This document shows, piece by piece, positions 16,291-47,000 of a stretch of 64,000 nt of DNA (position 1 is the first letter of the stretch; each line of letters starts with the position of its first letter). The notes beneath the pieces are model-generated. The model did no database searches and had not been told where the DNA came from. It worked only from the letters and a program-made list of their open reading frames with translations. The stretch comes from Polytrichum commune (lineage: Eukaryota; Streptophyta; Polytrichopsida; Polytrichales; Polytrichaceae): NCBI GenBank assembly GCA_950295325.1, contig OX485805.1, positions 7,004,501 to 7,068,500 of the forward strand, in the 5' to 3' direction. The position numbers and the translations under genes were made by a program.

Positions 16291-17012
16291 GCTACGACAA
16301 CTCAAAAAAATTTCAAACGATTCTTACTTATGGCACCGACGTATGGGCCATCTCAATTTTCACTATTTGTCCCAACTAAGTCGTCAGCATGTTGGAACAC
16401 CAAACCTTCTTCCAGCCCCAAGTGGTGTCAAACACTGTGATAGCTGCCATTGAGGCAGGAGTGCAAGAAATACGTTTCCGAATACTGCAACGCTACATAG
16501 ATCTTAGAATTGATTCATTCGGAATTGTGTGGTCCTTTAACAATCAAATCTTTAGGTGGTGCGTATTGTTTCATCACATTCACTTAAGATTTTTCACGAA
16601 AGACATGAACACTATATTCGTTAATCGGAGACTTTTGAAAGTCTCAAAATAAAATATGCCCATAGTTTGGGATGCCAATATTGTGGGCATATGGAATGTT
16701 GGGAACATCAAGAACATGACAATTTAAAAATTCGCACGTAAAGAATATTCCTAATACTAAAAATAGAAAATTGCAATTATAATGAAAACGTGAACTCCAT
16801 GTGGAAAATAACAAGCGAATATAAAAAACAAATGGTTTATGTCATTATAGAGTTTGGGGTGCGCATCCCATAAGTAAGGTTCTTATGGTTTTGGATGGCA
16901 CATCCCAAACGTATACCACAATGGAGTGTGACAAGTCTACTAAGTCTATTAAAAACCAAGACTACTAAGTACTAATGTTTTTTCCCGCCGTTAACTTTCA
17001 CCTATGTTATGT
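16291..17012. other. Non-coding stretch
   Basis: No gene recognised. A small hairpin-capable stretch, ATGCCCA...TGGGCAT, sits at about 16,656-16,691, and a TTTGGGATG word recurs inverted near 16,900, perhaps the ends of a small inverted-repeat element; this is weak. Confidence 0.4.
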
Positions 17013-19590: not shown

Positions 19591-19619
19591 ACTGTGAACC
19601 CTTTGAGTGGTCCACCACT

Positions 19620-22330
19620 CTGCGGGATCACTTTTAGTTAGAATGTTAGCATTAAAAGTTAGAATTGATAGGGAATTTAGGAAAAATTAGTTCATTTAGC
19701 ATTTAGCCTAGAAGAAGGAAGGTCAAAATGAAACTAAGTAGTGCTAGAAGATAGCAAAGTAGAAAAAATGTGCTAGCTAGTAAAAACAACTAGCTAAGCA
19801 AATATTAGTAGATGCTAGTTATTAAGCAAATGTTAGTAGATGCTAGCTAAGCAAGTGTTAGTTTATTAGTTAGTGTGAGGCACACAAGACTATTGGAGGT
19901 GTTTTATGTAAGAAGATAAAATCGGCGTGAAGAATTTTGAAGAAAAAAAGAAAGAAAGCAAGGGGGATACTTGCCCACTTGCCCCCTTGCCAACTCGATG
20001 GCGGAAAAATTAGAAAGATTTCTAAAGGTTTTTTGTCGGAGCCACCTCGGCGAGAGGGTGGCAACCTCAACCGGGAAAACCCCCGAGCCAAAATTTCGGG
20101 AAAGGGTTTGAAAAATGGATCCGGTGGAGGAGGGGTCCAACCCTTTTGTGAGAGGGTTTAAAAACCCCTCCTTCCACCTTGTAGCTCTCTCTCTTTCTCT
20201 AGTTTTTGGGTGAAGCCCTGCTTCAATGTAGTTAGGAAAAAATCCTTTAGCATGTATTCTCAATGGTCTAAAAGAAAGGCTTGAGAACCTCCTCTACTCT
20301 CTCTCTCCTAGTTAGGTTGTGTGTTTATTAACACACCAACAAAATGATTCCTTCTTTTGTAGAGGTAGGTTGGATGGTAGAATTTTGAGTGGAGGCATTG
20401 TAGACCTCATCTGCCAATGCCCTGAAGGCTTAGTTCAGAAGCTAGAACAAGATACTTATCATTTTTCTCTTAGAGAGATTTCCTATAGCTATCCATAGCC
20501 GTTTCCCATTTGTGATTTGGTTAAGATGACAATTAGTTATGAATTTTCAAAGATGGAGTAGAAAAACTGGGTGGTCTTGTGGGTAGCGGCTGTTGGATCA
20601 GACCTGCGAGCCCAATAGGAATTTTAATTCCAAGAAATTATATTTTTCCCAAGTAGAACTTTTGTGTAGCTTTCCAAAATGGCTTAGAACATTTGATTTG
20701 AGCATGATTTGAATTAGATATGAATTGTGCAAGATGGGACACATAGTTTGAGAACTTTTGGTTGACTGCTGCATTACAGAGGACCTGCTGGGTTCACTTT
20801 GGCTTACCTTTCTAATCACATATTTTTATCAAATACATATTTTTAATATCTCTCCAGGGTCATATAGAACGTTTGATTTGACTAAGATTTGAATTAGATA
20901 TGAATTGTTGAAGGCGAGATACATAGTTTAAGCCTTCTTGATTGACTGCTGTGTTACAAGGAGTCCGCTGAATTTCTATTAGCTTAACCTGCTGATGTCA
21001 TAATTTTTCTAGTTAGAGCTTGTTCATAGCTTTCCAATGGTATAAGGAAAGCCTAGATCCAAGTAGTAAGGAATGTGCTATGAATTTTTGAAGTTAGAAG
21101 GTAGATAGGTGGGTTGGAAGGGTCGGTTGAATCGACCTCACACTTCCAACCCTCATAACTTTTGCATTTCTTATCCGATTAGAGTGATTTTTAGATCATT
21201 GGAAAGATAATTTGGTGCACTAAGTATAAATATTATGCTTAGGATTAAATTACAGGGCAGAATAACACTTTATATTTTAATTGTTAACTAAGGTACGCTT
21301 ACTACCAAACTAGTTACAAAGAAGGAGGCAAGGTCGACGCTCGGAAAGTGGAGCAAGGAAGGAGGTAGCGGCTCGGCCTACATCAAGCCCAAATCAACCG
21401 AGGAAAATTGAGGTAAATTAACTAACCTTAAGCCTTCCATTTAGGATTGGAGGGAGCACGGCTAAGGTACGCATTTCTAAACCCACTCACCTATCTCGTA
21501 AGGTCAAGTGGCTTGACCACTTGACCGCCAAGGGAGTACCCAATTCCATTGTTTTCGGGGCCCTTGGTATGTTTTGTAGTAGTAGCTTCATTTATTAGCA
21601 AGTTTCGTGTGTGGTAAGTCGGATTAATCACCGACACGACCACTCTGAATGTTGTTGGTGGAAAGGTGGGGTTAATGACCCGCGAATCCACTATTATGTT
21701 GTTGGCCCCATAGATTGGGAGTAATAGCCCCAATTTATGAAGATTGCGCAACAGGTTGAACCTACAGGTCGCCCGTCACCCTGGTCCCATTGAGTTGCAT
21801 TTCGTGGTCTATCCAGTGTAAACACATTTAACAATCAAAACATACAAAATAAATCGTAAACCCTTGTTGGCAAGAGACCCGAGGTAAGGGGTGATGCCTA
21901 ATATGTTAATGTAGTGAGTTAGGACGTGCAAACAAAAGTAAGTAATTAAGAAGGAATTTGTGTGAAGGGTGGGACTTAGGCCAAGTTCCCCCGCTTAGAA
22001 AACTAAATAGAACTAAATAAAGAAATAGGAAGAATTGAATGGTCCATCAAATTGTCGTTATTCCGTTCGTTGAGTTAGGGTGGTATGAGTCACACCCGGT
22101 TGGGTGTATCAGAACCATCCCAATTCACAAATTAGGATTGCCTTGGTTTCAAGGCTGGTGCGTCTGCGCGTAGAATAGGTTGTAGGTTAAGGTTAGAACT
22201 AGATATGAAATTGGTTAGTGGAATTTAAAGCCACACTAGTAAAAAACTAAGGCCTAACCTCCGGAGGTACTACGACGCATATTTAATCTCCCTTAAAAAT
22301 CTAACTACTCACGTTATACACCTATCATCC
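19620..22330. repeat. Non-coding LTR-like region
   Basis: No coding sequence of note. About 20,515-20,640, 20,690-20,815 and 20,870-20,985 are three diverged copies of a unit with GATTTGA.T.AGATATGAATTG and TTGACTGCTG..TTACA. The segment 20,140-20,210 holds TTTAAAAACCCCTCC followed by a CT-rich run, like an LTR core promoter, and 21,150-21,230 has the shape of plant LTR leader sequence. This may be an old LTR plus leader, but I could not define TG...CA ends or a target duplication. Confidence 0.35.
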
Positions 22331-22391
22331 GGGTTCGGCTTGGGCGCCTGCAAATGCAGGCCACCTTCACCGAAGGGCTTGTGTGATACTT

Positions 22392-23162
22392 TTAGGCTCC
22401 CTCGAAAGGGGGTGGCCCAAAAGTACCACACACACGGTTTGAATCATATCTACGGAGGCCTTTGCGAGGACGTGTTGTGGCCAACAAAGCTAATTGTGTT
22501 TGCTTATGCCGCCGCTCATGATCCCACAAACTCACTTCCTCATGTAGAACTCGACGAAGCGGCCATCGACGCAAGGAAAATCTCCATGTCACCGGGAACT
22601 CTACCGGAAGCAAAGAGTTCAAGATGCACACGCCAACATCATCGAGACCTAGGGCGTTGGCATCGACACAATCACGGGGATTGGAGTTTCTACATATACC
22701 ATCTGCCACCGGGACACCAACCTCGTTGAGTAGAACGACATCAAGGCCAACCCATTGCTCCCTCCCGAAACCGGCACACAACGGAATGTCATCGTGGTCA
22801 TCTCCGGAATGCAGAGATTGTTCGTGGACTTCCAAAGATTCATGGGAGGATGTATCCATAAACACCCCCCTCACGTTTGGCACACCATTACTATCTGCCG
22901 ACGGGGAAGACAGTTCACATTCAGCATCGGATGACGATGCATACGTCGACAACTCCAATGAACTATCACCCACATGCAACGCCATACAGCCTAGACCAAC
23001 CACCAGGACATGATCAACCCAACCACCACCGCAATGCATACAAGAGAGGATAGAATATATGTGGAGATAAATGGCCCAAAATTGACAAACAAATTTTGGT
23101 GCACCATTGGAGAACCTCACGCACAAAGACGAACGCGCGTCCCAAAAAAACGTTTTAAGCAT
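22392..23162 (-). CDS. Hypothetical 256-residue open frame
   Basis: A long uninterrupted frame runs on the minus strand. It is serine- and acid-rich in the middle (STYASSSDAECELSSPSADS) and basic near the end, without any domain I recognise. The plus strand of the same interval is also largely open in two overlapping frames, so the interval may be an exon remnant read on either strand. It lies immediately upstream of the relic of the DGQH/HAD gene's 3' end and of the palindrome array, so it could belong to that older copy. No start context or intron pattern supports expression. Confidence 0.3.
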   Translation of the reverse strand: MLKTFFWDARSSLCVRFSNGAPKFVCQFWAIYLHIYSILSCMHCGGGWVDHVLVVGLGCMALHVGDSSLELSTYASSSDAECELSSPSADSNGVPNVRGVFMDTSSHESLEVHEQSLHSGDDHDDIPLCAGFGREQWVGLDVVLLNEVGVPVADGICRNSNPRDCVDANALGLDDVGVCILNSLLPVEFPVTWRFSLRRWPLRRVLHEEVSLWDHERRHKQTQLALLATTRPRKGLRRYDSNRVCGTFGPPPFEGA

Positions 23163-23450
23163 ACGTCTAGGTTGTTCACTAATGTAAACAATACATGGAC
23201 AAAGAGGAGAACACTCGTTAGTCGTCCAGGAGGGCCCTGCTGTTCGGACCAGCGCCTGTCCACATACAACCGACGACGAAATCAGAAATCCGAGAACGCC
23301 ACATGCATTTACGAACGCGCGTTCGTGACCTCAGTAACTTCTCCATATACATCCGGCGGCCTTCGAGATCCCTCAAATGAGAGCACCCTGAGGAATATCG
23401 GTTTTGTAGGTCAAAGTACCATGTTAACTTAGGAACCTGCGCGATATACT
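23130..23450 (+). pseudogene. Relic of the 3' part of the DGQH/HAD gene
   Basis: This stretch aligns with 44,031-44,250 of the large gene: GAGGGCCCTGCTGTTCGGACC versus GAGGGACCTGCTGCTCGGTCC at the end of its exon 3, a palindrome, then CATCCGGCGGCCTTCGAGA versus CATCCAGTGGCCTTGCGAGA at exon 4, and TTTTGTAGG in both. It is diverged, and the exon 4 acceptor AG is lost. It shows that the large gene belongs to a family with at least two copies in the window, in the same orientation. Confidence 0.7.
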
Positions 23451-24379
23451 ATCACAAGAGAACACTTGTCCATACGCACAAAATTAGCAAATCTGCAGAT
23501 GATGCCTGAATCAACTCCAACAATATTTTGAACACTGAGCACCTCCATATTGTGAATTTGATTATGTTGACTTTTGCGTACCTACCCATTTACGAACGGA
23601 CGTTCGTAAATGGGTGCGACCCCGTGTTCACATCCTTCACGGACGAGCGATGAGCATATTTTTCTTGCTATTCTGTGTTCGTAAATTACTGCCATACTGA
23701 TGTGCATGAATGAAGATGTGTTGCTGGATGCGTAGACAATAATGACATGTATTTACGAACGAACGTTCGTAAATTCCCGACCATCAGGTAACAATAGATA
23801 CGGGTCAAATAAGTATGTATGATCCTCGAAGGCATATTTACGAACGCACGTTCGTAAATGACTATCATGGATTAAGTGCATGTGACTAACCATATGAGTA
23901 CCTCAATCCAGAACATGCTCTCATGTGGGATTTACGAACGCACGTTCGTAAATTACCGACCAACAGGTACCAATAGACAAGGGTCAAATATGTATGTATG
24001 AAACTCGAAGGCATATTTACGAACGCACGTTCGTAAATAAATGCCATGGATGATGTGCATGTGACTATCCATGAGTAGCTCAATCCAAAACATGATCTCC
24101 TGTGGGATTTACGAACGCACGTTCGTAAATTACCGACCATCAGGTACCAATAGATAAGGGTCAAATATGTCTGCATGGTTCTCGAAGGCATATTTACGAA
24201 CGCACGTTCGTAAATAACTGAGATGGATTACGTGCATGTGACTATCCATATGAGTAACCCAATCCAGAATATGCTCTCATGTGGAATTTACGAACGCGCG
24301 TTCGTAAATCCTTGCCATGTCCAGGTCCGAATCGTTTGTCTAAACCTGAAGCTCTTCATCTTTACGAACGTGCGTTCGT
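23311..24379. repeat. Array of 16-bp palindromes (cluster A)
   Basis: Ten copies of ACGAACG-NN-CGTTCGT occur at 23,311, 23,592, 23,755, 23,840, 23,934, 24,019, 24,111, 24,196, 24,290 and 24,364 (start positions). Nearly all extend by TTT on the left and AAA on the right, giving 10-base arms around a variable 2-base centre (CA most often, also GC, GA, AA, TG). From 23,755 the copies sit in about three and a half tandem units of ~178 bases, each unit holding two palindromes 85 bases apart followed by a 92-94 base interval. The remaining unit sequence is also repeated (GGTCAAATA, CATGTGACTA, TCGAAGGCATA). Confidence 0.9.
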
Positions 24380-27246: not shown

Positions 27247-29365
27247 TGTGAGGCCAAACCCCCCACCCTTAAGCGTCCGTAGTCCGAGTAGTGGGTTTGG
27301 GCTCACATTCCTCCGCGGTATTGGATTTGGACTTGGATGAGTCCATAGTGCAAGGTTCACCCTTCAAGTGGTCTTGGATTTAACTGGAATTTCACTTTTA
27401 ACAACTCAATGTACGATTTCAATACGTGTGTGGAGAATGCACAAGTTAACTATGTTATTTTAACCTCCTTATGCTCGGGTGCTATTTTGTCTTTGTTTGC
27501 TTCTAACGTCCATCCGGCTGCTTTAGCTACACAAGCCCTTAAGGATATCCCTCTCCTAAATGGAGTCCGTGCCGTTGACTCTATACTACCACTTGAACTA
27601 TCACTTGTGTATTCCGTATCGCTACTATAAGAGGTCTCACTTGGTGTCTCCATACCGTACATAAGCCTTTAAGTATTAAGAAATACTTATGTGACTTATG
27701 TCAATCTCTCCCTCGCACCTTTGGTCTTTGCTTCCTTTGTCTTGCCATCGCGAGAGTGCTCCACATTCTCCATTAAGTTGTGCACGTGGTTTATTTTTAA
27801 AGAGAGGATGCAAGTGAAAAAAAAAACACTATTCTCTATAGTCAATCTCAAATACATTTACTTGTGAAAGCCACACATAACACTAACTAGCATAATGTAA
27901 CTAACTACTTGTCTATGAGCTAATTAGGTAGGCTATCTACTAAGCTCCTTTATGAACCCATCTCTTTACTTTCTAATTACATAAACCTAGCTCCTTCATA
28001 AACCCAGCTCCTTCATAAACCCAGCTTCTTAGCTTCTAACTAAACAAACCCAGCTCCTTCATAAACCCAGCTCCTTCATGAACCCAGCTCCTTAGCTTCT
28101 AACTAAACAAACCCAGCTCCTTCATAAACCCAGCTCCTTCATGAACCCACAACTTTGTAGTTGTAATCCCCAACTACCTCACTAATTATTCAAGCCCTTA
28201 ACTAATCTTCCTACCTAATTTCCCTAATTCTACTAACAACCCCTTTCTAATCACACAATTCTTCTCTAATCCTAAAATCCTAAAATCCTAGAGAGGAGAG
28301 GGGGAGAGAGAATTTCCTAACTTCACTAAGACTAACTAATCCACACAAGTATATTTTTGCACTCATCACAACATCAAGTGCTCAACTCTTAAACATGGAA
28401 CTTGCAACCACGTGTATTCAAAACATGAACTTTAAGTACCACAAATTGGAATCATGAATTAACTTTAAAATCCTTCACGTCAACACTAATTCTACCAAGA
28501 GGTCAAGCCCTCTTCAAGGCTAACAAGCTTTGGCTCTCAAACTAAAAACTAAGCACACACATGTGCTCCAATATGGCTTCCCACACCCACACTTATAACT
28601 CGTGGGGTGCCTTGGAGCACAAAGGAAAGAGAGGATGAGTGAGGGAAGAATGAGGGATTATATAGTAAGCTTGAGGGGGTGAGCACCCTCAAGGCTCACG
28701 ATAAGCCCTTGAGATTTCCTCCTACTTAGTAGGCGCCAATCCTATCTTCTAAGCCTTCCTCCCTCAAATGATCAACAAGGATCCTAATTCGAACATTTAA
28801 CTAGCCTTGGCTTTCTACCTACCACACTTTACCAAACTTGGGATGCTTCAACCCAAACTTAGCCTCCTTCGCTTTCCGCCGCCATAACTTTCTCCCCTTA
28901 CTTTCCCAAATCGTCGCTCACCACTTAATTCAAACCACGATGCTTAACTCGTGATTTGATTGGTGCTTTGAGAATTTGCTTATCCTCCACCTTGCATTTT
29001 TCCTTGGGCCTTCCCCATTAAGTGGCCATGATGAGGTGGTCCACTTGTGCGCTCCATGTGATCCTCCATTCATCCCAATTCGAATGCACTTGCCTCTTGA
29101 GTCACTTTGGTTGTCTCCATCCATTTGTACTAGCCTACTCACTAACTACTCAATCCAAGTTCTCCTTACCTATCCTCATTCACTCAAATCCTTCCGAAGG
29201 TAAAAACACAATAACAACTCACATCCTAGCCTCTTACAACATGGTACTTCTAAGACTAACATTTCACTCTTTTTATATTTTTGTGAAGTAACATGCTACT
29301 TCAAAGTGCATCAACTAACGTTTCAAGGGTCTAAGACTAAATGTGGGCACCCTTTTGGGCTCACA
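27247..29365 (-). repeat. LTR (3' LTR in element orientation), 2,119 bp
   Basis: The sequence is the same as 36,576-38,694 as far as compared. On the minus strand it holds CTATATAAT followed by CCTCATTCTTCCCTCAC, a plausible TATA box and start region (about 28,655-28,665). An internal tandem repeat of CTCCTTCATAAACCCAG units occurs at about 27,990-28,150. Confidence 0.95.
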
Positions 29366-29426
29366 TAATTGGCGACCATCGGGGGATGAATCCAAACATC
29401 TCTTGCTCCAAGGGTAAATTGCCTAG

Positions 29427-32400
29427 TCAAGCTCGGTACTCCTTACATCTACTTCCCGATGTACGGGTAGAAAAGAGCTCACCATTCAACGTTTCCAATT
29501 GAATTGAATTATTAGGAAAGACCTCATAGACAAGGTAAGGTCCTAACCATACCGCATTGAATTTCGCCGGAAATTCAAGCTTTCGTGCGTCTTGAATCAT
29601 GACCATCATTCCCGGTGTTAGGGCCCTTCTCTTATGTCGTTTGTCGAAAGTAATCTTTCTCCTTCTTTGGATTGCCTCAATATGTTGAGCCGCCATTCTC
29701 CTCCCTTCGTCAAGTGCTTCCAAATCGGTTAGTCGATTTCGTAAGGATTGACTTTCGGTAAGTCTCGTACTCACGGCCACCCTAAGTGACTCGACTTCAT
29801 ATTCGATTGGTAGTGTCGCTTCAAGACCATAGACTAAGGAAAATGGTGTAGCACGCGTAGTTACCTTATAGGTTGTACGGTATGCCCAAAGTGCCGCCGT
29901 TAGTTTCGTATCCCAATCCCGCTTCGAGTCTATAACCGTCTTGCGTAGTATACTCACCAAAATTCCGTTAACCCTTTCCGTTTGTCCATTGGTTTGTGGG
30001 TGGTAGGGAGTAGTCTTCCGGTGATCAATTTTAAATTTCTCTGTCATCTCTCGAATCAAGTCATTCAAAAAGTGAGTACCCCTATCGCTTACTAGGATCT
30101 TCGGCACCCCGAACCGCGAAATTATGTTTTCGTACATAAATGTTGCCGCGTGTTCCGCCGTGTCGGTCTTCACCGCTTTGGCTTCCGCCCACTTGGTGAG
30201 GTACTCGGTTGCCACCACAATATATTTCATTCCTTTTGAAGATTGGGGATGGACCTCACCCACATAGTCGATGCCCCATTTTTCGAAAGGAATTAAGGGT
30301 AATGATACATGTAAAGGCATCTCCATTCTAAGGTCGTCTCGGGCATACCGTTGGCAAGCGTCGCATTTCCTTACATAGTCATGGGCGTCCTTAAATAGTG
30401 TAGGCCAAAAGTAGCCCGCTCTAAGTATTTTTTGCCCGGTGAGTTGACCCGAGAAGTGACCGCCGCAAGCGCTATCGTGGCAAGCGATTAAAATCGCTTC
30501 AACCTCCGTTTTTGACACGCATCGTCGTAAAATACCATCGGACCCCCTTCTAAACAACCTATGGCCCACTACAACAAATTGCCTACTATTTACCCTCACC
30601 TTCCTTCTCTCTTCTTTTGTCCACTCTTTGGGCAACTTGTGGGTTGTTAGAAATTCCACTATGCCCGCATACCACTCCGGTGTAGAAGTGACCACAAAGA
30701 GGCTATCATCTACTAACATATCATTTACCGGATTTTTTCCTATCTCCTCCGACAACCTAGACAAGTGGTCCGCTTGTAAATGCATACGACCCGGTTTATA
30801 TTCCACCGTGTAGTCGAATTCTTCTAATAACAAAACCCACCTAGCTAACCTACCACTTAACTCCGCCTTGTTAATTAGATACTTGATAGCCATGTGGTCA
30901 ACAAAAAATACAACCGGGTTGCACATGAGGTAATGCCTAAACTTTTTAACGGAAAACACCATGGCTAGGCACTCCCTCTCCGTTGTAGAGTAGTTTCTTT
31001 CGGCGGGGGTCAATTGCTTACTCGCATAAGCTATAGGTTGATCCTTCTCTTTTTCTCCCGTTGCTTGACAAAGCGCACTCCCTATTGCCACATTACTAGC
31101 ATCACAATAGACGTGAAAAGGTTTACCCCAATTGGGTGGTATCAACACCGGATAGGTGCTCAACCTATCCCGCAATTCCTCAAAGGCTTTTTGACAAGCA
31201 TCCGTCCACTCGAATTTGACATCCTTTTTGAGCAAATGGGTAATGGGCACCGCTATCTTTGAAAAATTAGGAATAAGTTCCCGGTACCATCCCACATGTC
31301 CTAACAACTTAGAGATCCCCTTGGAATTGGTTGGAGTTGCCAAGTCGCTTATGGCCGCAATCTTATCCGGATCGGGTTCTCTACCTTTCTCACTAACAAC
31401 ATAACCCAACAACACTCCCTTATTCACTCCCAAAAATGTCTTATCCGGGTTCAATGCTAACCTCATCTTCCTACACCTCACCAATGCCTCCCTAACACAA
31501 TGTAGGTGATCATCCACATTACTTTGTGTGCTAAAATCGTCCACAAAGACGGTCATGGATTTGAACAACAAGTCGGTGAAGATATACATTACTAATCGTT
31601 GGAAAGTAGCCGGGGCATTACATAACCCAAATGGCATCACTACCCACACAAAAGTACCCCAAGGTGTAGTAAAAGCCGTTTTATGGATATCTTGGAGGGC
31701 TATGGAAATTTGATTATAACCCGCATACCCATCCATAAAGGTATATCGCGAATGACCTCCAACCTCCTCAAGCAACAAGGTGATAAAAGGTAAGGGGAAG
31801 TGATCCTTTTATGTGCACGAATTCAATTTCCTATAGTCGACACAAACCCTTAATTTCCCATTTTTTTTCTTTACTAAGACTATAGGAGAAACCCAATCCG
31901 TGATTTCCACCGGCTTGATAAACCCGGCCTTCAATAACCTTTCCAATTCCGCTTTCACCAACAATTGCAATTGAGGATTCATCCTCCTCTCCTTTTGTCT
32001 AATTGGCCTCGCCCCCGGAATTAAAGGAATCCGGTGCTCTACCATTTCCCTAGGAATTCCCTTAAGCTCATCGTAGGACCATGCAAAAGTATCACTAAAC
32101 TCATCCACCAAATTGCTATACTCCCTAACCTCTTTCTCCCCCAATTTGGAGCCCATCTTCATTTGTCGGGTTTTTCCATTCTTTAATTTCACATCCACGT
32201 ACCGCCAATCCGCTTCCGACACATGTGCTTGTTCCTCTTTGTTCCGATACCAATCGGAAGGCACATTGGGGTAATCTTTCACATCTTGACCTACAACTAT
32301 CCCCGTAGACGTGGTCTTGAAATGTAAAGGCTCCTCCAATTTCGATGACTCAATAATCACATCCTCCTCTTGAGTCCCATCTACATGAATTAAACTAACC

Positions 32401-35400
32401 TCACCCTCTTCCACGTCATCTACCCAAGGTGTTAACCCACCGCTAACCCACTCTTCCTCGGTGAGCACCTCACATGGCTCCAACAATGAGCCCTCTCCTA
32501 AACTAACACTAGGAAATTCACTCCCTAAGCCTACTTGGTGAAATGTAACCATTACATCAACCTCGGACTCGGGGTACTCCCTTAGCCATTGGGCATAATC
32601 CCCATTATCCCCATAATTGTAAAAATTAGGACCTAGACTTCCCGAGCCCGAATCTATAACAACCCTTTGACCTTCGGGATGGACGACTCCCACCAATGCC
32701 TTGCCAATCTCATTCTCGTTTAAGTCATCAATTTCCTTCTCCAATGGCAAATACATCTCCTTCTTCATCCATCCTTCTAATGAACCAATGGACACTATGA
32801 CCCTATTACCCTCCGGACCATAAGTGATGGATGGTTTAGGTCCACCCCAATTGACCATAGCATTCGCCATCCGCAACCAAGGCCTACCTAGCAAAATGGG
32901 GAAGGTGTCCTTGTTGGAGTGCATTTTAATGACATGGAAGGTGACCAAGTACTCCTCACCTCCCGTAGTCATTCTACAATCCTTGATCATCCCCAAAGGC
33001 GTAGTCGAACTTTGATTTGCCATATTTATGACCAAAGGTGAAGGCCCCGTGAGTCCAAGTCCCAATTTTTTCATAGTATCCTCCGGTAGTATATTTAGAC
33101 TACTCCCTCCGTCGACTAGCACATTAGGAACCACCTTATCTACTATAACAACTTCTATTTCTATAGCTTTCACGTCTCTTCCACCTTGTGATTGGATCCT
33201 AGCGGCTATTTTAGCTTTCACCTTCCTCATCCTCTTGTGTACCGGCATTCCCTCCTTTAATGTTTTCCTTGCCGTGGGTGAAATTTCCAATAGTTGGCCG
33301 AAAGTAATATCCGCCTTGAGTGTACTAAGGTCCGCCCACAAGTCGTACCCGGTAGATCTTTCCACCTTAGAATTACCCACTACGTCGAATTCGTCTACGG
33401 GAACCCCCGGTCCTTCCCATTCACCCACATCGCTATTATCCAAGTCATGTACCGCATTAGTCCTCTCCCTATCTTGTGAAATTATATTTTCCCTCTCCAC
33501 ATCCTTAGTAGCTCTTCTAGCTACCCTATCCAACTCGGAGAGATTAATCTCTTCATCCGAAGAGTAATTTCCTTGCTCTCCTATTCCTACCTCCAACGGG
33601 GCATCCCCTCTCCTAGCCCTAGTAGTTACCGCTAGTGCAGGTGCTTCTTCAACCACACCCTTACCCTTCACTAACTCATATGTAATAGCATTGGTGTGAG
33701 GAGGCCATTGACTTTGCTCCTCTCCAATTCTCGTTGGGAGAGGAAGCATGTCATCACATGTGGCCTCCAACACTCCATCCATGAACCTAACATCTTGGGA
33801 GTTAGATGGTCCCGGATCCGTTGGAGGCGCTTGTCTCCCGTTACTACCATTAGGTGGAACTCCTTGTCTATTTTGTATTGGAATGTAACCGGTTGTAGTT
33901 TGCAAGCCCGCCGGTGGATGAAAAGTTTGCCTAGCATTACTATGGTCATAGTATAAGTTAGGTGGCCTAAGTTCATTGGCCGGTACTCCTTGTGGCCTAG
34001 CACCTCGCATATTATCCCTTGCTTGTTGTTGTGGATTAGCCACCGGGTAAGGGACATTAATTATTTTGTCCGGTTGGCGACACGTATCCGAGGGATGACT
34101 TCCTCCACAATTGCTACAATTAAACTCTTGACCTTCGGACCAACATTGTCCTTGAGCGTGCCACCTTCCACAAAAGGGATGAAATTCCTTCTTCTCTAGA
34201 TTTTGGCCACCTTGCCCTCTAGGTTGTGGTCCTCTATTGCTTCCATTTCCATAGTGAGGTGGTGCTTGACCTCGTTGATTTTGTTGAGGTGGGTTACCGT
34301 TTCCTCTTTGGTCACGGTTTTGTCCACTTCTACAAAATTGACGCGTGTGGCCCGGTTGGCCACATTGGACACACCATAATCCGGAAGAATGCCTACCCGA
34401 CTCAACCGGGGGTGGAGGCCCCGGTTGTTGACTCCGGATCATTAATGACATTTGATCCGTGAGGCTTTGCATTTGTTTTATCATAGCCTCTTGGAATCCT
34501 AGTTGGCTAGCACCTAGTCTTCTCTCAACCTCCTCCAAGTGTGGATCCGTTCTAGGGGCCGGTAGTGCCAAAAGAGGTGCCGGTTCCCTAACCGCTAAAG
34601 GTCGGGGACCGGTGTCCACAATGGCATATGGAATTTGGTTCTCATACTTAGCGGGTTCTACCGCTACCACCCTAGGGCGTATGGGGATGAATTGTGGGAT
34701 CAATTCATCCTCCCTTCTCCATAGCCTTTCGTGATCTTTATCCAAGTTTTCAATATCTCTAGCCGCACGCTTGGCATCCGCCAAGGTCAAGGGATTCCTT
34801 TCTAGAACACCCCTAATAGTTCCGGACTTAAAAAACCCTTGAATGAAAAATTGCTTTAGCGTGTCGTCGTTGAGCATGGTACCCACAAATCTAGTGCACA
34901 CTAAATCAAACCTCCTAATGTAAGCCGAAATTTCTTCCTCCCTTCCTTGCTTCAATGACGACAATGCCCTTAATGCGGTACTTTGACCCACTTCCGGCCT
35001 AAATTCGTTAAGAAACTCCCTTTGTAATTGTTCCCATCCCCTAAAATGTCCCTCGGCATGATCCCGATACCATTCATAGGCTTCCCCCTCTAGAGTGGTA
35101 GGAAACCACACTAACCAATAACCCGGGTCGGTTATGAGGAAGCTAGCCAACCGTTCGATATACCGTTCCATGTGCCGAGAGGGGTCCTCATCCTTGGTCC
35201 CATAAAATTTAGGGAGATGAGATGGCATATCCATCGCCGCTAAATTTTGTGGAACCACAATTGGTAGGCCTCTTGGCCTAACCAATGGGTCTATTGGAGG
35301 TATAGGAGGTATGGGCGGAATTGGGGGTATGGGTGGTGGATCCATCCCCCGTTCCTCGGCCATGGTGACCGGTGAACTATTCAACAATCCCCTATCAACT

Positions 35401-35666
35401 TCTACCGGGAATTCTTCTCTAAGTGTGTAATTTTCCGAAGAAGTTTCACCACTCAATTTGGAGGGAGTGATCTCCTCTTCAAGTTGAGCTCCAAGTTCTA
35501 AGGTGTCTAGAATTGACCTAGTCCTAGGTTCGACGTTCAAACAACTCTCTATTCTAACATTATCTTGTTCTAATCTATCACTGATTTTAGAGGACCGCCT
35601 CTTTCGAGTAGATTTCTCTAGTCCTACTATCAAACTTGGTTTTTGTGAGCGAGTCCTACCTTGCAT
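29427..35666 (-). pseudogene. Gypsy gag-pol, one frame with one in-frame TAA
   Basis: Translation starts at MQGRTRSQ (35,666). Capsid-type gag follows (FYGTKDEDPSRHMERYIERL region), then zinc knuckles CVQCGQPGHTRQFC (about 34,330-34,372) and CSNCGGSHPSDTC, then an aspartic protease VDGGSSLNIL (about 33,085-33,140). Reverse transcriptase begins near 32,000 with the LVKKKNGKLRVCVDYRKLN region. A TAA at 31,809-31,811 interrupts it just before KDHFPLPF, after which the same frame continues with the MPFGLCNAPATF and FVDDF motifs, RNase H, the integrase H2C2 finger and a D-D-E core (GIDYVG, VSDRGTHF, GQTERVNG), ending at TGA 29,427. Apart from the single stop it appears intact at about 2,080 codons, so it may be mobilised in trans or be a very recent casualty. 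Confidence 0.92.
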
Positions 35667-36575
35667 TCCATAAGAATCGATCGACCCTCACTTGACCACA
35701 CATAATCCTAGCAATTCCCCTCTTAATATTTTCACTTGTCTTGGTGTGGTTATAATTTTTTTAGGAGGTGAAGAAAAGAACCTGCAAGCCCACTTAGGTG
35801 AAAGAATCCCAATAGGGGATAGGCATGTTCATGTTAATTTTTTGGTTAAGTCGGAGCATCACCTCCGCACCTTCCCGCAAATTAACACTCACCACAATAC
35901 CGATTGTGAGGGGGTGACCTTCCGAGTAGATTATGTTAAAAGTCGAGGCTTCACCCTTCAACTTCTCACACCATCCACAATTTGGGAATTATCCTCTACA
36001 ACGGATAACAACAATCACGAGTACAAAAGGCATTCCTTAATTAGTTAATGAGTTCACTTTGAAGAAATAAACATACCTTGAGCAATCGCATCCCCCTGTG
36101 AGTTAGCACTCCCCTCAATCGTGACTCAATGTAACAACACCATAAACTTTGTGAAATATTAATTTAATCTAGAGCATGAAATGACAACTCCCAAAACTTT
36201 GAGACTCACCCCGAGGTGAGTGTCAAAGTTCAATGTCCTAAGGTGAATTTACCCTCTAATGTTTTAATGAGCTACTAGGTTATAGGTTCCTTTTAAGTTC
36301 TTAGCAAATCCCCAAAAAGGTTGAGGACGTACCTTCGCCGCGCTCCTTCCTCAAAAATGAATTTGCGTAATTGACAATGCAATTCATTCCAAGGAATAGT
36401 TGAAATACAATGAATTCAAATGTAACCCAAAGAGAGAATACTTACCGAGTTTCGGGTGCTCCTTCCCTTCTCTCAAGTTTGTGTCTCCAATTTTTCCTAG
36501 TTGCCTCCAAGTCTCCTAGTCGCCTCCAAGTCTTGTAACTACCTTCCGCTTCGCTCCCGGCGGACGCACCAATTA
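35667..36575 (-). other. Gypsy 5' leader with primer-site region
   Basis: This is the untranslated leader between the 5' LTR and gag. Reading inward from the LTR on the minus strand it begins TAATTGGTGCGTCCGCCGGG, the expected position of the primer binding site and typical of gypsy primer sites in starting TTGGTGC. I do not assign the tRNA. Short open frames here have no recognised similarity. Confidence 0.6.
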
Positions 36576-38694
36576 TGTGAGGCCAAACCCCCCACCCTTA
36601 AGCGTCCGTAGTCCGAGTAGTGGGTTTGGGCTCACATTCCTCCGCGGTATTGGATTTGGACTTGGATGAGTCCATAGTGCAAGGTTCACCCTTCAAGTGG
36701 TCTTGGATTTAACTGGAATTTCACTTTTAACAACTCAATGTACGATTTCAATACGTGTGTGGAGAATGCACAAGTTAACTATGTTATTTTAACCTCCTTA
36801 TGCTCGGGTGCTATTTTGTCTTTGTTTGCTTCTAACGTCCATCCGGCTGCTTTAGCTACACAAGCCCTTAAGGATATCCCTCTCCTAAATGGAGTCCGTG
36901 CCGTTGACTCTATACTACCACTTGAACTATCACTTGTGTATTCCGTATCGCTACTATAAGAGGTCTCACTTGGTGTCTCCATACCGTACATAAGCCTTTA
37001 AGTATTAAGAAATACTTATGTGACTTATGTCAATCTCTCCCTCGCACCTTTGGTCTTTGCTTCCTTTGTCTTGCCATCGCGAGAGTGCTCCACATTCTCC
37101 ATTAAGTTGTGCACGTGGTTTATTTTTAAAGAGAGGATGCAAGTGAAAAAAAAAACACTATTCTCTATAGTCAATCTCAAATACATTTACTTGTGAAAGC
37201 CACACATAACACTAACTAGCATAATGTAACTAACTACTTGTCTATGAGCTAATTAGGTAGGCTATCTACTAAGCTCCTTTATGAACCCATCTCTTTACTT
37301 TCTAATTACATAAACCTAGCTCCTTCATAAACCCAGCTCCTTCATAAACCCAGCTTCTTAGCTTCTAACTAAACAAACCCAGCTCCTTCATAAACCCAGC
37401 TCCTTCATGAACCCAGCTCCTTAGCTTCTAACTAAACAAACCCAGCTCCTTCATAAACCCAGCTCCTTCATGAACCCACAACTTTGTAGTTGTAATCCCC
37501 AACTACCTCACTAATTATTCAAGCCCTTAACTAATCTTCCTACCTAATTTCCCTAATTCTACTAACAACCCCTTTCTAATCACACAATTCTTCTCTAATC
37601 CTAAAATCCTAAAATCCTAGAGAGGAGAGGGGGAGAGAGAATTTCCTAACTTCACTAAGACTAACTAATCCACACAAGTATATTTTTGCACTCATCACAA
37701 CATCAAGTGCTCAACTCTTAAACATGGAACTTGCAACCACGTGTATTCAAAACATGAACTTTAAGTACCACAAATTGGAATCATGAATTAACTTTAAAAT
37801 CCTTCACGTCAACACTAATTCTACCAAGAGGTCAAGCCCTCTTCAAGGCTAACAAGCTTTGGCTCTCAAACTAAAAACTAAGCACACACATGTGCTCCAA
37901 TATGGCTTCCCACACCCACACTTATAACTCGTGGGGTGCCTTGGAGCACAAAGGAAAGAGAGGATGAGTGAGGGAAGAATGAGGGATTATATAGTAAGCT
38001 TGAGGGGGTGAGCACCCTCAAGGCTCACGATAAGCCCTTGAGATTTCCTCCTACTTAGTAGGCGCCAATCCTATCTTCTAAGCCTTCCTCCCTCAAATGA
38101 TCAACAAGGATCCTAATTCGAACATTTAACTAGCCTTGGCTTTCTACCTACCACACTTTACCAAACTTGGGATGCTTCAACCCAAACTTAGCCTCCTTCG
38201 CTTTCCGCCGCCATAACTTTCTCCCCTTACTTTCCCAAATCGTCGCTCACCACTTAATTCAAACCACGATGCTTAACTCGTGATTTGATTGGTGCTTTGA
38301 GAATTTGCTTATCCTCCACCTTGCATTTTTCCTTGGGCCTTCCCCATTAAGTGGCCATGATGAGGTGGTCCACTTGTGCGCTCCATGTGATCCTCCATTC
38401 ATCCCAATTCGAATGCACTTGCCTCTTGAGTCACTTTGGTTGTCTCCATCCATTTGTACTAGCCTACTCACTAACTACTCAATCCAAGTTCTCCTTACCT
38501 ATCCTCATTCACTCAAATCCTTCCGAAGGTAAAAACACAATAACAACTCACATCCTAGCCTCTTACAACATGGTACTTCTAAGACTAACATTTCACTCTT
38601 TTTATATTTTTGTGAAGTAACATGCTACTTCAAAGTGCATCAACTAACGTTTCAAGGGTCTAAGACTAAATGTGGGCACCCTTTTGGGCTCACA
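36576..38694 (-). repeat. LTR (5' LTR in element orientation), 2,119 bp
   Basis: Equal in length to the partner at 27,247-29,365 and apparently identical over all parts checked by eye, including the internal tandem repeat. It would drive transcription of the minus-strand element away from the large gene on its right. Confidence 0.95.
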
Positions 38695-39157: not shown

Positions 39158-39783
39158 ACGAACGCTCGTTCGTAAATGGACATACACTGCATACCCACCT
39201 CCATTTACGAATGCTCGTTCGTAAATGGACATACACTGCATACCGAACCTCCATTTACGAACGTGCGTTCGTAAATACGCACTCCACGTTCTTTGAAATG
39301 ATCTATATTTACGAACGCACGTTCGTAAATATACTCAAAATATCACTCAGAAGGAACCTTAACTTAAATATGAACCTCTATGAATATCTAAAGAACAAAT
39401 ACAATTTTGCGAACACCAATAAGACAAATCACATGTACTTACGAAAGATAAATCAACCAAATATCCGAAAAGATAGACCAAATGGACATACTTACGAACG
39501 CACGTTCGTAAATGAATCCAAACCTATAAAACCTATATCTTTTACGAACGATCGTTCGTAAAAATAACCAAATATATTACAAACACATTCATGACGAGTA
39601 GTCTCTTTGATCTTCATATCTTTTACGAACGCTCGTTCGTAAACTCAATACTAAAAATTTATATGATCTTGCAACCCCTCATTTACGAGCGAACGTTCGT
39701 AAATATAATTACATCAATTGCAAAGACGCATTAACACTGCGTAGTCTGTGGGATATGCATGTCACTTACGAACGTTCGTTCGT
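39158..39783. repeat. Palindrome cluster B1, upstream of the gene
   Basis: Nine copies of the ACGAACG-NN-CGTTCGT dyad start at 39,158, 39,207, 39,257, 39,311, 39,494, 39,544, 39,625, 39,685 and 39,768. Two carry single arm changes (ACGAATG, ACGAGCG). Centres are TC, TC, TG, CA, CA, AT, TC, AA and TT. Unlike cluster A, the DNA between them is mostly not repeated, so the palindromes themselves are the conserved unit. The last one ends 32 bases before the probable start codon. Confidence 0.92.
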
Positions 39784-39814
39784 AAAGTCACTAATTGTTT
39801 ATATTCTGTTGCAA

Positions 39815-42800
39815 ATGGCAAGATCAAGCAGAAGCGCCATTGAGATGTTCGCGGTGAAGGTCGATGGCCTCCCAGAGTCGGTGTTAGACGATAACGGCAA
39901 CGACAACTATGTCCCCAAGGAAGACTTCATGGGGGAGTGGACGGCACTGCCAGAGAAGATCGGGGACGGCCTCTTCTGCATGCGCTTCACCTACGAGCTG
40001 GAGACAAGACCGGACCAGCCCGAACAGTGGGTTCAAATGAAGACGTGGGAGATAGAGTCCATAGAGGCCCAGGGGGAGTATGTAATTCTGGACATGAAGA
40101 ACAAGAAGGATCATATCAACCTCTTGTTGCATTTTCAGAAAAATACCTTCTCCTACCAATACGCCACCAATAACGTAGCGGAAGATGCCAAGCACTTCGA
40201 CCTGGACGGCCTCTTCTCCAAATATGCGTTGAGCCCATACTGGACTGCAAGGAAATTGACCGCCCTTGCATTGAACATCTCCAAATACAACAGTGTGGTC
40301 ACTGAGGCAAACAAGAAGAAGAAGAGCCCCAGGAAACCATCCACATCAGGGGCAGGAGGATCTAGAAGTGCACCCAGGCCTGTGCCTTCCGCTAGCAGGG
40401 CGACGGAGGGCCCCAGTAGACACTCCACGCCATCGAAGAGGACAAGGGAGGAGATGGAGAAATCGGGAGTAACGGAGACCGCAGAGGTGACCTCGCCTGT
40501 CGTAATGCCCACCCCCTTGAAAAAGGGTGAGAACCCTGACGCTGTGAAGGCCACGAGGATCCTTCGAGACTTCAACAACTACTCGAAGGATTGCTGGCCC
40601 ATGGGACGCCACTTCACATTCAACGTGGACTGCTTCAAGTGCGAGATGTCCCCCAACAAATGGGTGGTTCGCTCTCGCGAAAGCGGTGGTGTGAAGTGGC
40701 AGATAAATAATCTAATGAACAACGTCAAGTGGGACAGGCAGACCGTCTGCGTCATGCCGAAGGGGCTGACATCCCGTCCGACGGAGAAGGACTGGCCACG
40801 GATCCAGAATGGAGAGTTCTGGATCATAGACGGCCAACACAGCTTGGAGGCGTCCCAAATAATTCTCAAGGACGACAACTTCCAGCATGAGCTGAAGGAG
40901 GACTTGCGCTACTGGAAGGCGTTCTTGGTGTGGTCGGACGATTGGGACAAGCTGCGGAAGATATCCACCTTCCTCAACTCCGGCAACAAAATCAAGGCCT
41001 TCGAGGCGTCGTGGGCAGCCAACATAGTGGCTGCAAGGGACGTCTGGGTCGCCCACGGGTGCCCCCCTAAAGAAAGGGAGAACGCGAAGACGCCGTCTCC
41101 ACAATGGAAGGTGAGTTTACGAACGAACGTTCGTAAATATCTTTGACATTCAAATTTTCAAGTTCTTTGACATTCAAACTTACGAACGTGCGTTCGTATT
41201 TTGTGCGTTACTGATGTTTTTCTTGCTGCAGGCATTCTGCGACGCGATGGTGGACAAGTTCTCCTCCATCGACATGAAGTCTACAACAACCAAGTCTGTC
41301 CTGGAGCTCAAGGGTGAGCTCCGCCTCATCTGTTGCAACAGGGACACTTGGGAGTTGTGGACACAATTTTTTGATGCGCACAACTCGGGCGATCTGGTCA
41401 ACCCCGACACCGAAGAGAAGTACAGCGCGGAGAAGACCGGGGAGGCCCCTCCACTACTGAGGGAGTTCTTCAGGTCCCTTCAAGGATTAACAGAGTCCGA
41501 GTTGCAGAGGTGCGCGGTGCATCTTCTTGGGAACACTGTGGGAAGAACCATCCCATACCCGAAGATATTTTTGAAGAGGCCAAGACACAAGCCCGGCACG
41601 TATTCCATCAAGGAATGGTGCGAACACCGCAAGCTGAAGACTGCTGCAATGAGGGAGTTGAGCGCCCTAATACCAGAGTACGCACTCATCCTAGCCGACG
41701 GGGACATTAATTGGGCCAGCTAGAAGATGTTCAAGGTCGACTACAACATCTCCGGACCCTCAATGCGTTGTCTTGTCAAGGAGCACGCCTCCATTTTGAA
41801 GCAGAAGGGGAACAAGAGGACAAAGAAAACCGAGACGGATCCCCAGGAGGTGGAGCAATACAGAAGCTTTTTGACGCGGAAGAGGTTGGCCACATTCGAA
41901 GGAGTGGCCAGATTTTGTCTGTTGACAAAAGGAGTGGAGAGGGTGACATTTTCCAAGTGGGACCGGACCATGAGCAGGGCCGAGGGAGGATCGACGGGGG
42001 TGCCCATTTGCCCTGATCGATTTCAGGGGGATCCCCGGTGCGTCGAGGCAGGGGGGGAAGGACATACCTTTCTACGACCCTTTCATGGCCAAGTTCAAGG
42101 AGCACAAGTCTCCGGACATGAGGGAGCCTCACGTTTGGCTGTGGATAGTCGAGCAGGAGAAGCTCTCTGCTGTAGTCGACATGTACGAGAAGTCGATCAA
42201 ATTTGAGTACAGCATCTTCCACAGCACTTACGTGCCCGCCAAGACGGAAGGGATCGTGGCCATCAACGAGGCCAGGGGGAACAAACAGGTGGGGGCGGTC
42301 AGCCTCGTCTTCTTGACGTACAACGCGCTGCGGAATGGGCGAGCCCCTGTCAAGGCGAACACTACGTTCAAGAAGATCTACAGCATCCCCCATCCCCCTC
42401 CCAAGGATCTGCTGCAGGAGACCTTGTACACTGTCTTCCCGGCGATGGAACTCAGGTTGGAGTTCTACGTCTCCGTTTTGCAGAGCGTGGCAATAAGCGG
42501 AGAGACCGTGTACAACGTTTGTGGCGGCAGCAAGTTCATGTACGCTGCGATGGTAAGCTCTCCAACTAATATTTACGAACGCTCGTTCGTAAAGTTCACC
42601 TCAACTTGTCTTGGGTTTGATGACATTGTTTCTCGTCGTTGATGTTTACGAACGCACGTTCGTATTTTCTAACATATTTGCTTGAATCTCAGATGCTGGG
42701 GCTGGTCGTCAACAGCTTCATTGAAGCCATCGACGAGGAGGACTTCCACGTGCACAGGGCGAAGGCCTCCACGATGGACCTGGAGGACATGTCCCTCCCG

Positions 42801-45494
42801 AGGACGGACATCAACATGCCCGCCATGGAGACGGACGACGACGAGCCCGCGCCCTCCTACAACGTCGAGGCGATCCTCCGATCCTTGGACGTCACTCCTC
42901 TCCGCATTTTGGCGCCGTCGGGAAATCCATCCGACGTGCAAGGGACTCCGGGTGGATACACGGGGTCGTCGGCGGGGACAACCCAAGATGTCCTCCCCGC
43001 GAGAACGTCTGGAGCGGAGGCATTCGGCACTCCCGGGGGATGCTCGACATCCGTGTCGCCCAGGCCGATCGTGGTTCCCAAGATGGAGAACCTCGACCTT
43101 CTGGACCAACGGTCCCGACCGACGTTGGACCAGTACCGCAACACAAGGCGGAGGATGAAGAAGACCCCCTACGTGGAGCTGCCTCCGGGGGCAATCATCG
43201 AGGTCTCCGATGAGGACGAGGGCGACATGGAGATCATGGTCGAGCTGGGGGTAGACTTTGACAAAAACAAGAGGGTCAAAGAGGAGGCGTTGTCCGTCGC
43301 CGAGCTTAACGCCAAGCTCGAGCAAAAGATGAAGGAGGACATGGCGAAGGCGGCAGAGGAGAATGCCAAGAAAATGTTCGCAATTCAGGAGGAGCTGAGG
43401 CAGTCGAACGAGAAGACGGACGCCATCCTCGCCATGCTCCAGCGTATGCAGAGCTTCTCGGCGCCCCCCCAGCCGGCCTACCCCTTCCCTGGAGGATACC
43501 CCTCCCAATCCCCTCCACCGGGCATGTTCACCGGAGGGCCTTCCCGCCAGCAGGCGCCCCACCCCACGCCTGTTGGCACTCCTCCGCCACCAGAGGTTCC
43601 CTCGACCACCTCCCACGATGCTGTGGCGGCGGCCATCCAGGAGGACGAGGATTTACGAACGCGCGCTCGTGAATCTTCAGGTCCTCCAGTCCTCACCCCT
43701 CCCCCTTCAAGGGTAGGACTGCCCTCATACACCGATGCATCGTCTTTCACCGTCGTCCCCAGGGTAGTAGACAGACATGGCGATGACTCTGCGCGACACA
43801 CTGACATGGTCATTGTGGAGGACACGCAGGGGAGCCCCAATGACGCACCAGGGGTGCATGGGATGGACGTGGAAGAAACCCATGCGGCGTGGATGGAGGA
43901 TGTCAGGATGGACGCGCTCGACCTGGGCGCCGAGGAAGAAGACGCGCTGCGCATCCAGGCGACACAGGCCTCTCAACCGGAGCGTGAGGCAGAGGCCATG
44001 GAGACAGAGGCGGCTGCAGCTGTGGAGGTTACGAACGCGCGTTCGTTAATCGTTGAGGAGGGACCTGCTGCTCGGTCCAGCGCCGCTACCCCTCCCCCCG
44101 ATGACGAGGTAACTCTCCTCTGAGAATACCATTTTTTAACGAACGCGCGTTCGTAACCTCTCTAACATCGCGATGTTTTTCTCTTCATCGACATCCAGTG
44201 GCCTTGCGAGAGCCCTCTTCAGCGGTCCCCCTTAGGGCCGAACAGTTTTGTAGGACACGGCATCATTTTGCCTTAGGAAAATGTGATAGACTATCATGTG
44301 AGAAATGTAAATATTCAACGGATTAATATATGAGCCTATGTTATCTGCATCGCGTTGCTTCAAATTCTCTGCCCTCGACCCCTTCTCGTATGTTGTATAT
44401 GTTGATGAGATTATGTTCATTCTTGCATACCCACCTCATTCGCGAACGCTCGTTTGTGAAAGGCTGCGACCCACTGTCCACCTCATTCGCGAACGACCGC
44501 TCGTAAATGTACGTGTAGCCGCGCTCACGAACGAGCGCTCGTAAATGATGCGCACCGCCCCCGCAGCCTTCATTCACGAACGCTCGTTCGCAAGTGTGCC
44601 CTTGAGCACATTTTCCTTGCACTCTCCTCACTTCCTCGTCTTTCCCCATAATGCACCGTCTTCATTTTCTACGCAAAATTTCATTATTGGATCATAGAAT
44701 TAAACTAGTCGAGTTGTTCATCACAGGACCCCCCGGAGATTGGTCGCAACCCCTCTACCAGTGGACCTCCCACCCGGAACAAACCTTTCATCGTTTTTGA
44801 CCTCAACGGGGTGTTGTGTCACACCCAACACATCCCAAGGGTCCCCACGCGTCCCTTCCGTCACCCCGACGAAAGGGACTATGACGGCGAGCTCGACACC
44901 CTCATTAACCGCAAGGCTGTCCGCGCCCGTCCCGGCTTGCGTGACTTCCTTCGCGAGGTGGTCGAGTTCGCTCACGTCATTGTGTGGAGCTCCATGGTCA
45001 TGGAGAACACCGAGCCCATCGTGCACTTCTTGTTCCGCGATCTCCCGAGCCCTTGCCTCGTCCTCGGCCAAGAGGACTGCGACGAGCTGCTCGACGAGAA
45101 AGGTCAACCGGTGCCCAAGTTTGGCGGTCGGGGCGGAGGACAACAGTTCCTCAAGGTCCTCCGCTCGAGACTCTGGCGAGGCGTCCCCCGTCTGCAAGGG
45201 ACGCCGCACGGGTGGTGGCCGACTCCAGAGAACACCGTCCTCATCGACGACAGCCCCACCAAGAGTGTCTTGAACCCCCCGGGCAACGTCATCTTCCCGG
45301 ACACTTGGACCGGCGATAGGCAAGACACATTTTTGGTCGATAGGCTAGCCCCCTACCTTAGAAGGCTCGTGCTCCACGCCGGTAGCATCCCATTTTTTGT
45401 TAGGTCCAACCCCTTCGGCAATGCGGCGCTAAGCCCCCGCGATAATGTATTCAAGAGCATCATGAGGCTCGCCAAACTCAATAAATTGATTTGA
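39815..45494 (+). CDS. DGQH-motif protein fused to FCP1/NIF-type HAD domain (predicted)
   Basis: Predicted exons are 39,815-41,110, 41,232-42,552, 42,693-44,108, 44,199-44,249 and 44,727-45,494. All junctions are GT-AG and phase 0. Exon 1 starts MARSSRSAIEMF, has a basic Ser/Pro linker, and carries EFWIIDGQHSLEASQ (D339 to S343), resembling the DGQHR/ParB-like DNA-associated superfamily, then FLNSGNKI. Exon 3 holds an acidic IIEVSDEDEGD patch (SUMO-interaction-like), a coiled coil (VAELNAKLEQKMKEDM onward) and Pro-rich sequence. The last exon has FDLNGVL, RPGLRDFL and LIDDSPTK, a HAD fold of the FCP1/NIF type with Asn replacing the second motif-I Asp, so phosphatase activity is doubtful. Exons are GC-rich at third positions; the introns are AT-rich. 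Exon 2 contains TAG at 41,721 and a frame change between 41,974 and 42,060, so this copy may be a pseudogene. The HAD exon could alternatively be a separate gene. Confidence 0.6.
41111..41231 (+). other. Intron 1 with two palindromes
   Basis: The intron runs GTGAGT...TTGCTGCAG. A palindrome begins eight bases after the donor (41,119) and another at 41,182, 35 bases before the acceptor. A CTTTGACATTCAAA word occurs twice between them. Each palindrome could form a 10-base-pair RNA hairpin in the pre-mRNA. Confidence 0.75.
42553..42692 (+). other. Intron 2 with two palindromes
   Basis: The intron runs GTAAGC...GAATCTCAG, with palindromes at 42,575 and 42,648, again one nearer each end. The second has TATTTT in place of TAAA as its right flank, the same departure seen in the second palindrome of intron 1, suggesting the two introns or their 3' halves share an origin. 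Confidence 0.75.
43655..44046 (+). repeat. Two palindromes inside exon 3
   Basis: ACGAACGCGCGCTCGT at 43,655 (one arm change) and ACGAACGCGCGTTCGT at 44,031 lie within the open reading frame of exon 3, encoding DLRTRARESS and VTNARSLIVE. Both have GC centres. They keep the frame open, so the repeat has been tolerated in coding sequence. Confidence 0.8.
44139..44591. repeat. Palindrome cluster B2, introns 3 and 4
   Basis: One palindrome lies in intron 3 (44,139), and four degenerate ones lie in intron 4 at 44,442, 44,489, 44,527 and 44,576, several with CGCGAACG or CTCACGAACG flanks and GC changes in the arms. The intron 4 sequence around them (GCTGCGACCCAC, TTTCCTTGCA) resembles cluster A around 23,600-23,680, which fixes the homology of the two loci. 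Confidence 0.8.
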
Positions 45495-46606: not shown

Positions 46607-47000
46607 TGTGACGTCTAGAAGCGTACTAGTGGGACGGACTCCCTAAATGGGCTTAGGTGTAGAACATATTTAAGTGCTTACTTTCTATGCTATTCCAAGT
46701 TACTCAAGACATTGATGGTATTTCCATTATAATTGTATTTCAATCCCAATTAATTCATTCAACTTCCATTCATTCTTCGCACCTTCCCTTCCATTCATAA
46801 CGAGTTGTGATTTCATACGCAACTATTTTCATGTATGCCTCACATTTTTGTTCACTTCCATGCCTTTATGTATAATAATAGTAGCATACCATTATACATA
46901 TGGAATTTTTAGTCGTCATTACTGGTCCAATTTTGAAAGGTGCATCCTTATATAGTCTCATAATCAACAAAAAGTCTCCAAATACCGAATATAGTGTTCA
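46607..47000. other. Non-coding spacer
   Basis: AT-rich and without a gene. It probably includes the 3' untranslated part of the preceding exons; no clear polyadenylation signal is asserted. Confidence 0.4.

Follow-up and report, generated by a model that had tools for sequence, protein, structure and literature searches.

Three lineages of a Polytrichum commune DNA transposon carry three different internal palindromes that may act as private recognition sites

We analyzed a stretch of 64,000 nucleotides of the Polytrichum commune genome (NCBI GenBank assembly GCA_950295325.1, contig OX485805.1, positions 7,004,501 to 7,068,500 of the forward strand), hereafter the window, in which a palindrome, ACGAACG-NN-CGTTCGT (m1), recurs in and around a gene predicted to encode a ParB/methyltransferase-like protein. 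The palindrome recurs as an internal cis-repeat within a DNA transposon of ~16 kb that is present in many copies. Three lineages of this transposon (fam1, fam2, and fam3) carry three palindromes (m1, m2, and m3) of one geometry, and the palindrome diverges together with the element's proteins, a pattern suggestive of self-recognition in each transposon lineage through a DNA barcode of its own. We lean, with modest confidence, towards reading m1, m2, and m3 as lineage-own cis-sites whose reader would be the ParB/methyltransferase-like protein of the same lineage, activating or un-silencing its own element.

Within the window, ACGAACGNNCGTTCGT (m1) has 37 matches at up to three mismatches, a count that includes overlapping matches to one site in shifted register, where 100 shuffles gave a mean of 0.75 and a maximum of 3. 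Twenty-three sites are exact, 13 at 39158-44154 and 10 in an array at 23311-24379 that lies upstream of a divergent gene for a DUF7869 protein, mostly within a 179-bp tandem repeat. The sequence-only reading, which had reported such a family with about 20 copies at 39158-44591, was right on both points: counting one reading per site at up to two mismatches, we found 20. Nine (7 exact) lie at 39158-39783, upstream of the ParB/methyltransferase-like gene (the second gene of the element); two exact sites lie in intron 1 (41119-41197), two in intron 2 (42575-42663), and two in exon 3 (43655-44046; 43655 with one mismatch, 44031 exact). The last five span 44139-44591, an exact site at 44139 in intron 3 and four weaker ones at 44442-44591, between the predicted end of the second gene and a phosphatase open reading frame (ORF). 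These exon limits are predictions that we made from the genomic sequence, based on ORFs and GT/AG sites. An additional site with one mismatch lies at 45854. Over 169 sites in five copies, the full form of m1 is TTTACGAACG-NN-CGTTCGTAAA with a variable central dinucleotide, and TTT/AAA extensions are frequent, as had also been noticed.

The two blocks of sites are pieces of one transposon, split by a retrotransposon. This fam1 copy occupies 16608-46998, as defined by alignment to copies A-D, termini, and flanks; it is bounded by terminal inverted repeats at 16608-16620 (plus strand, AACACTATATTCG) and 46986-46998 (minus strand) and by a CATG/CATG target duplication, and two later insertions (about 19593-22430 and 27247-38694) enlarge its length to 30.4 kb. 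Genome-wide, the terminus AACACTATATTCG has 776 matches in forward and 807 in reverse orientation, and its reversed control has 3 and 10. Twelve further terminus-paired elements were taken from chromosome C1. Of the 15 elements examined, all but EC_5765k and E21542k (13 of 15) have an exact 4-bp target duplication. The m1 pattern itself has 7937 sites at up to one mismatch in the 408-Mb genome, against 125 for the reversed pattern. Hence, the palindrome is not tied to one gene, and the private family of a single gene that had been supposed is not supported. Even scatter unlinked to homologues of the gene was not seen either: the m1 matches listed for C1 cluster inside element copies, with one lone site. 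The gene relic that had been noted beside the 23.3-kb array was confirmed as a duplicated 3′ end of the second gene (23215-23462, plus strand; 67% identical to 44043-44304).

The placement of the sites was examined in copy C, an uninterrupted element of 16,074 bp with open frames for the DUF7869 protein (minus strand), the three large exons of the second gene, and a NIF-type phosphatase. At up to one mismatch, its 30 m1 sites comprise 10 before the DUF7869 gene, 9 before the second gene, 2 each in intron 1, intron 2, and exon 3 of the latter, 4 ahead of the phosphatase ORF, and 1 in the right part, with none in the other counted compartments. Thus, 27 of the 30 lie outside the listed exons and ORFs, the exceptions being the exon 3 pair and the site in the ORF-bearing right part. 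In another element, E10973k, none of the 34 palindrome sites falls within exons 1 or 2 or the phosphatase ORF. At the same threshold, the left 3.8 kb of both copy C and E10973k hold no site, nor does either end stretch of E10973k, and copy C has one in its right-hand 1.5 kb. Elements reduced in gene content retain the palindromes: ED_639k and E16407k, with only gene fragments left, have 33 and 18 exact sites, and E14016k and E21542k, where the second gene is not detectable, have 4 and 6.

Six full-length relatives among the 12 further elements belong to fam2. Their identity to fam1 is about 58-66% for the DUF7869 protein, about 34-35% for exon 1 of the second gene, and about 43% for the phosphatase, and they contain zero m1 sites. 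An unbiased palindrome search returned TGGGTCG-NN-CGACCCA (m2) as the commonest palindrome of fam2 (173 sites in 6 of 7 elements, the seventh, E11508k, having the DUF7869 gene only), while the same search in fam1 returned ACGAACG-NN-CGTTCGT (128 sites, 7 of 7 elements). The two are mutually exclusive across the 15 elements, and E15651k, a decayed relative, holds neither. In its full form, GTTTGGGTCG-NN-CGACCCAAAC, m2 has the 10-NN-10 layout of m1 and occupies matching compartments, and it is found at 10,055 exact sites genome-wide (1 for the control). The termini of fam1 and fam2 are nearly identical, though their palindromes differ.

The palindrome of the third lineage was predicted before its DNA was seen, as ACGGACGNNCGTCCGT, from database proteins that read through exon 1 into intron 1; the DNA of two such loci then proved to hold 6 and 9 exact m3 sites. 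Its form, TTTACGGACG-NN-CGTCCGTAAA, repeats the geometry of m1 and m2, and the genome has 1394 exact sites (1 for the control). The 50 m3 matches listed fall into six clusters, all on C1, five of them within about 10 kb of a fam3 gene and three inside terminus pairs.

We then surveyed 88 exon-1 and exon-2 database proteins for read-through tails able to separate m1 from m3. Group-1 proteins (n = 49) gave 24 m1 tails and no m3 tail, group-3 proteins (n = 35) gave 10 m3 tails and no m1 tail, and one of the four group-2 proteins had an m2 tail; no motif tail was found in 120 DUF7869 database proteins. In a quick phylogeny built from 35 exon-1 proteins, 28 of them with a known motif (eight short ones, including one m3-tailed, were excluded beforehand), the motif type changes twice, which is the minimum, where shuffles average 11.6 changes and none of 200 is as low. 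The three groups have Shimodaira-Hasegawa-like approximate likelihood ratio test (SH-aLRT) supports of 91, 100, and 99, with long branches flagged. Near copies ease such clustering, and the weight rests on exclusivity and the successful m3 prediction.

Tails LRPRGRK, LRPRVRK, or TAGRP occur in the database proteins P0018, P0022, P0174, P0176, and P0183; judged from these tails, further palindrome variants, e.g., ACGGCCG-NN-CGGCCGT, may exist around the base of group 3. The element E610k (C1:610757-628840) carries 17 m2 sites at a near-regular 78-bp spacing in its bases 5335-6584, within a 461-aa open frame.

The conservation pattern points to recognition by a protein. Between copies A and C (11 sites), 7 of 154 arm bases differ, compared with 85 of 342 flanking bases. 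Among variant sites, changes in one arm prevail over changes in two (77 against 18 in fam1, 50 against 6 in fam2). With conserved arms, a free center, and mostly one-arm variants, recognition of the dyad by a protein, probably a dimer, is the best fit, as originally proposed. A special keeping of CpGs in the arms, also proposed, is not supported: CpGs are abundant throughout the element (observed/expected 0.90 after removal of the motifs, 0.51-0.56 in the window outside it), and CpG transitions in three near-identical copies are at least as frequent in the motif (5 of 510) as in other CpGs (16 of 4755). As single insertions are unprotected, what is conserved from lineage to lineage is due to selection acting on active copies, not to lasting protection.

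In structure models, the second-gene protein combines a ParB-CTPase-like domain with a DNA amino-methyltransferase-like domain that lacks DPPY; the models match both the ParB/Srx-like and the methyltransferase fold. Pfam assigned DUF7869 among the element proteins and left the second protein without a family. Under the favored reading, the second-gene protein would dimerise on the dyad of its own lineage, at sites before the two main genes and within introns, and the bound protein would keep or switch its lineage active by anti-silencing or activation, sparing related lineages and the host genome.

Several observations weigh against this reading. The catalytic motif of N6A/N4C DNA amino-methyltransferases is [DNS]PP[YFW]; at the place judged equivalent by eye, all 26 proteins have DF[RC]xxP. 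Also absent is the P-motif arginine (DGQHS in 14 of 16 proteins, DGQHT in 1, DGQYS in 1), a conserved residue of the ParB-CTPase fold that nucleotide binding requires according to PMC12704722. With both motifs degenerate, neither nucleoside triphosphate use nor methylation can be assumed. The fold matches depend on models with mean predicted local distance difference test (pLDDT) scores of 73 and 68, and searches of Pfam, NCBIfam, and PDB profiles gave no sequence-level ParB or methyltransferase match. Since the DUF7869 protein and the phosphatase also co-diverge, the reader protein is not pinned down, and the tail lacked discriminating power in 53 of the 88 proteins surveyed. One fam3 locus, otherwise carrying m3, has one exact m1 just before the gene (L136:1549-1564), which may be a relic, an exchange, or the mark of a second function, and m1, m2, and m3 are all absent from E15651k and the DUF7869-only E11508k. 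Finally, motif CpGs decay after insertion, so that lasting hypomethylation is not visible.

By analogy, the closest working model is that of VANC acting on VANDAL elements, which are Mutator-like elements (MULEs) of Arabidopsis. As described in PMC5735166 and PMC10398659, VANDAL motifs occupy non-coding DNA and introns, gain copies within tandem repeats, and evolve in concert with VANC. The present element is likewise a multi-gene plant DNA transposon with many copies, whose short motif is concentrated in non-coding parts (introns and the region upstream of a gene) and grows in tandem repeats; related families carry different motifs, and the motif varies along with a protein of the element. 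However, it uses a 22-bp dyad with a free center instead of a 9-base oriented motif, its transposase-like gene is DUF7869 with 4-bp target duplications, and the candidate reader models as ParB-like and methyltransferase-like. Moreover, VANC binding and demethylation were demonstrated experimentally, whereas the system described here is known from sequence and models. The same reader could instead control copy number, repress rivals, or protect the element; this would leave the binding logic unchanged, and a fused methyltransferase-like domain would permit several outcomes, but VANC motifs in the same kinds of places favor anti-silencing by analogy, and we consider such another task rather unlikely.

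It is also conceivable, though doubtful, that a ParB-parS-like system operates in a eukaryotic transposon, in which the palindromes would load a ParB/methyltransferase-like clamp that starts at promoters and introns and spreads across the element, keeping its chromatin open, with mutually blind protein/palindrome pairs. ParB/parS, Noc, and KorB share with the present system a ParB-CTPase-like fold (predicted here), a mobile element, and repeated palindromic sites, and PMC12704722 reports that fusions of ParB folds with N6/N4 methyltransferases are frequent in phages. Those systems belong to bacteria and plasmids, however, whereas here a eukaryotic transposon carries a 22-bp dyad with an NN center, the P-motif arginine and a sequence-level match are missing, and there is no ParA. 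DGQHR/DndB and GmrS (DUF262) proteins resemble the second-gene protein in having a DGQH motif within a ParB/Srx-like fold, as described in PMC4619093, but in our proteins S or T takes the place of R at the fifth position (16 of 16), and no Pfam or NCBIfam match was obtained.

Reading of the palindromes by the other main protein is a further possibility. En/Spm (CACTA) elements have TnpA sites of 12 bp in subterminal position, and the CACTA target duplication is 3 bp. Like these, our element is a plant DNA transposon with repeated short sites, element-encoded proteins, and termini containing CACTA, and its palindromes could be bound by the DUF7869 putative transposase or serve synapsis or excision. 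Short lineage-specific repeats inside a DNA transposon would be expected from this, the largest array adjoins the DUF7869 gene, elements with few gene remnants retain palindromes, and TnpA activates Spm with demethylation, according to a passage of PMC10398659. Yet the sites are internal and nearly missing from the ends of copy C and E10973k, termini that are nearly alike accompany unlike palindromes, and E11508k has the DUF7869 gene, both termini, and a target duplication without a single site. The target duplication of 4 bp with AACACTA termini (13 of 15) also differs from CACTA. Overall, we hold this explanation to be unlikely. If the element had borrowed host sites, the palindromes would be promoter or enhancer sequences used by a host transcription factor. 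Positions upstream of genes and in introns would suit this, but three lineages with three exclusive palindromes in matching compartments, tracking an element protein, together with the confinement of the listed C1 matches, one lone site aside, to element copies, make this improbable. A mobile palindromic cassette, cruciform, or RNA hairpin spreading or acting by pairing would explain why perfect dyads recur so many times, even within introns and one exon. This explanation is very improbable, as the arms mostly change singly (compensatory pairs in 5 of 95 fam1 and 0 of 56 fam2 variants) and the sites travel with their host transposon, multiplying by tandem duplication of longer units that are copy-specific; the cassette proposed earlier is therefore not retained.

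Sequence-specific self-recognition by plant transposons has been worked out in detail for Arabidopsis VANDAL. If the favored reading is correct, a second, apparently unrelated system would indicate that lineage-private barcodes arise repeatedly, and it would provide natural sets of protein/site pairs for testing specificity change. According to PMC12704722, sulfiredoxin is the main form in which the ParB fold has been reported from eukaryotes, and the present system would give that fold a new setting.

In the window copy, the DUF7869 gene, a putative transposase (17016-23330, minus strand; PF25273 E 1e-40, ORFs, tblastn), is interrupted twice, once where the 19593-22430 element inserted and once at an in-frame stop close to 17817, and in copy C it is open except for an intron. 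Its protein has conserved D421, D546, H582, and D588, and a profile search against PDB found no relative; the named relatives of the protein point to a moss as the probable host. The second gene (39815-44276, plus strand; ORFs, splice sites, homologues, and models), with predicted exons 39815-41110, 41232-42552, 42693-44108, and 44199-44276, has an in-frame stop and a frameshift in the window, both in exon 2, and is open in copy C. The NIF/FCP1-type phosphatase-like ORF lies at 44709-45494 (plus strand; PF03031 E 2.8e-16) and is retained in fam1 and fam2 elements. The insertion within the DUF7869 gene measures ~2.8 kb, and that at 27247-38694 is a Ty3-type retrotransposon whose 2119-bp long terminal repeats are 100% identical, a very recent insertion.
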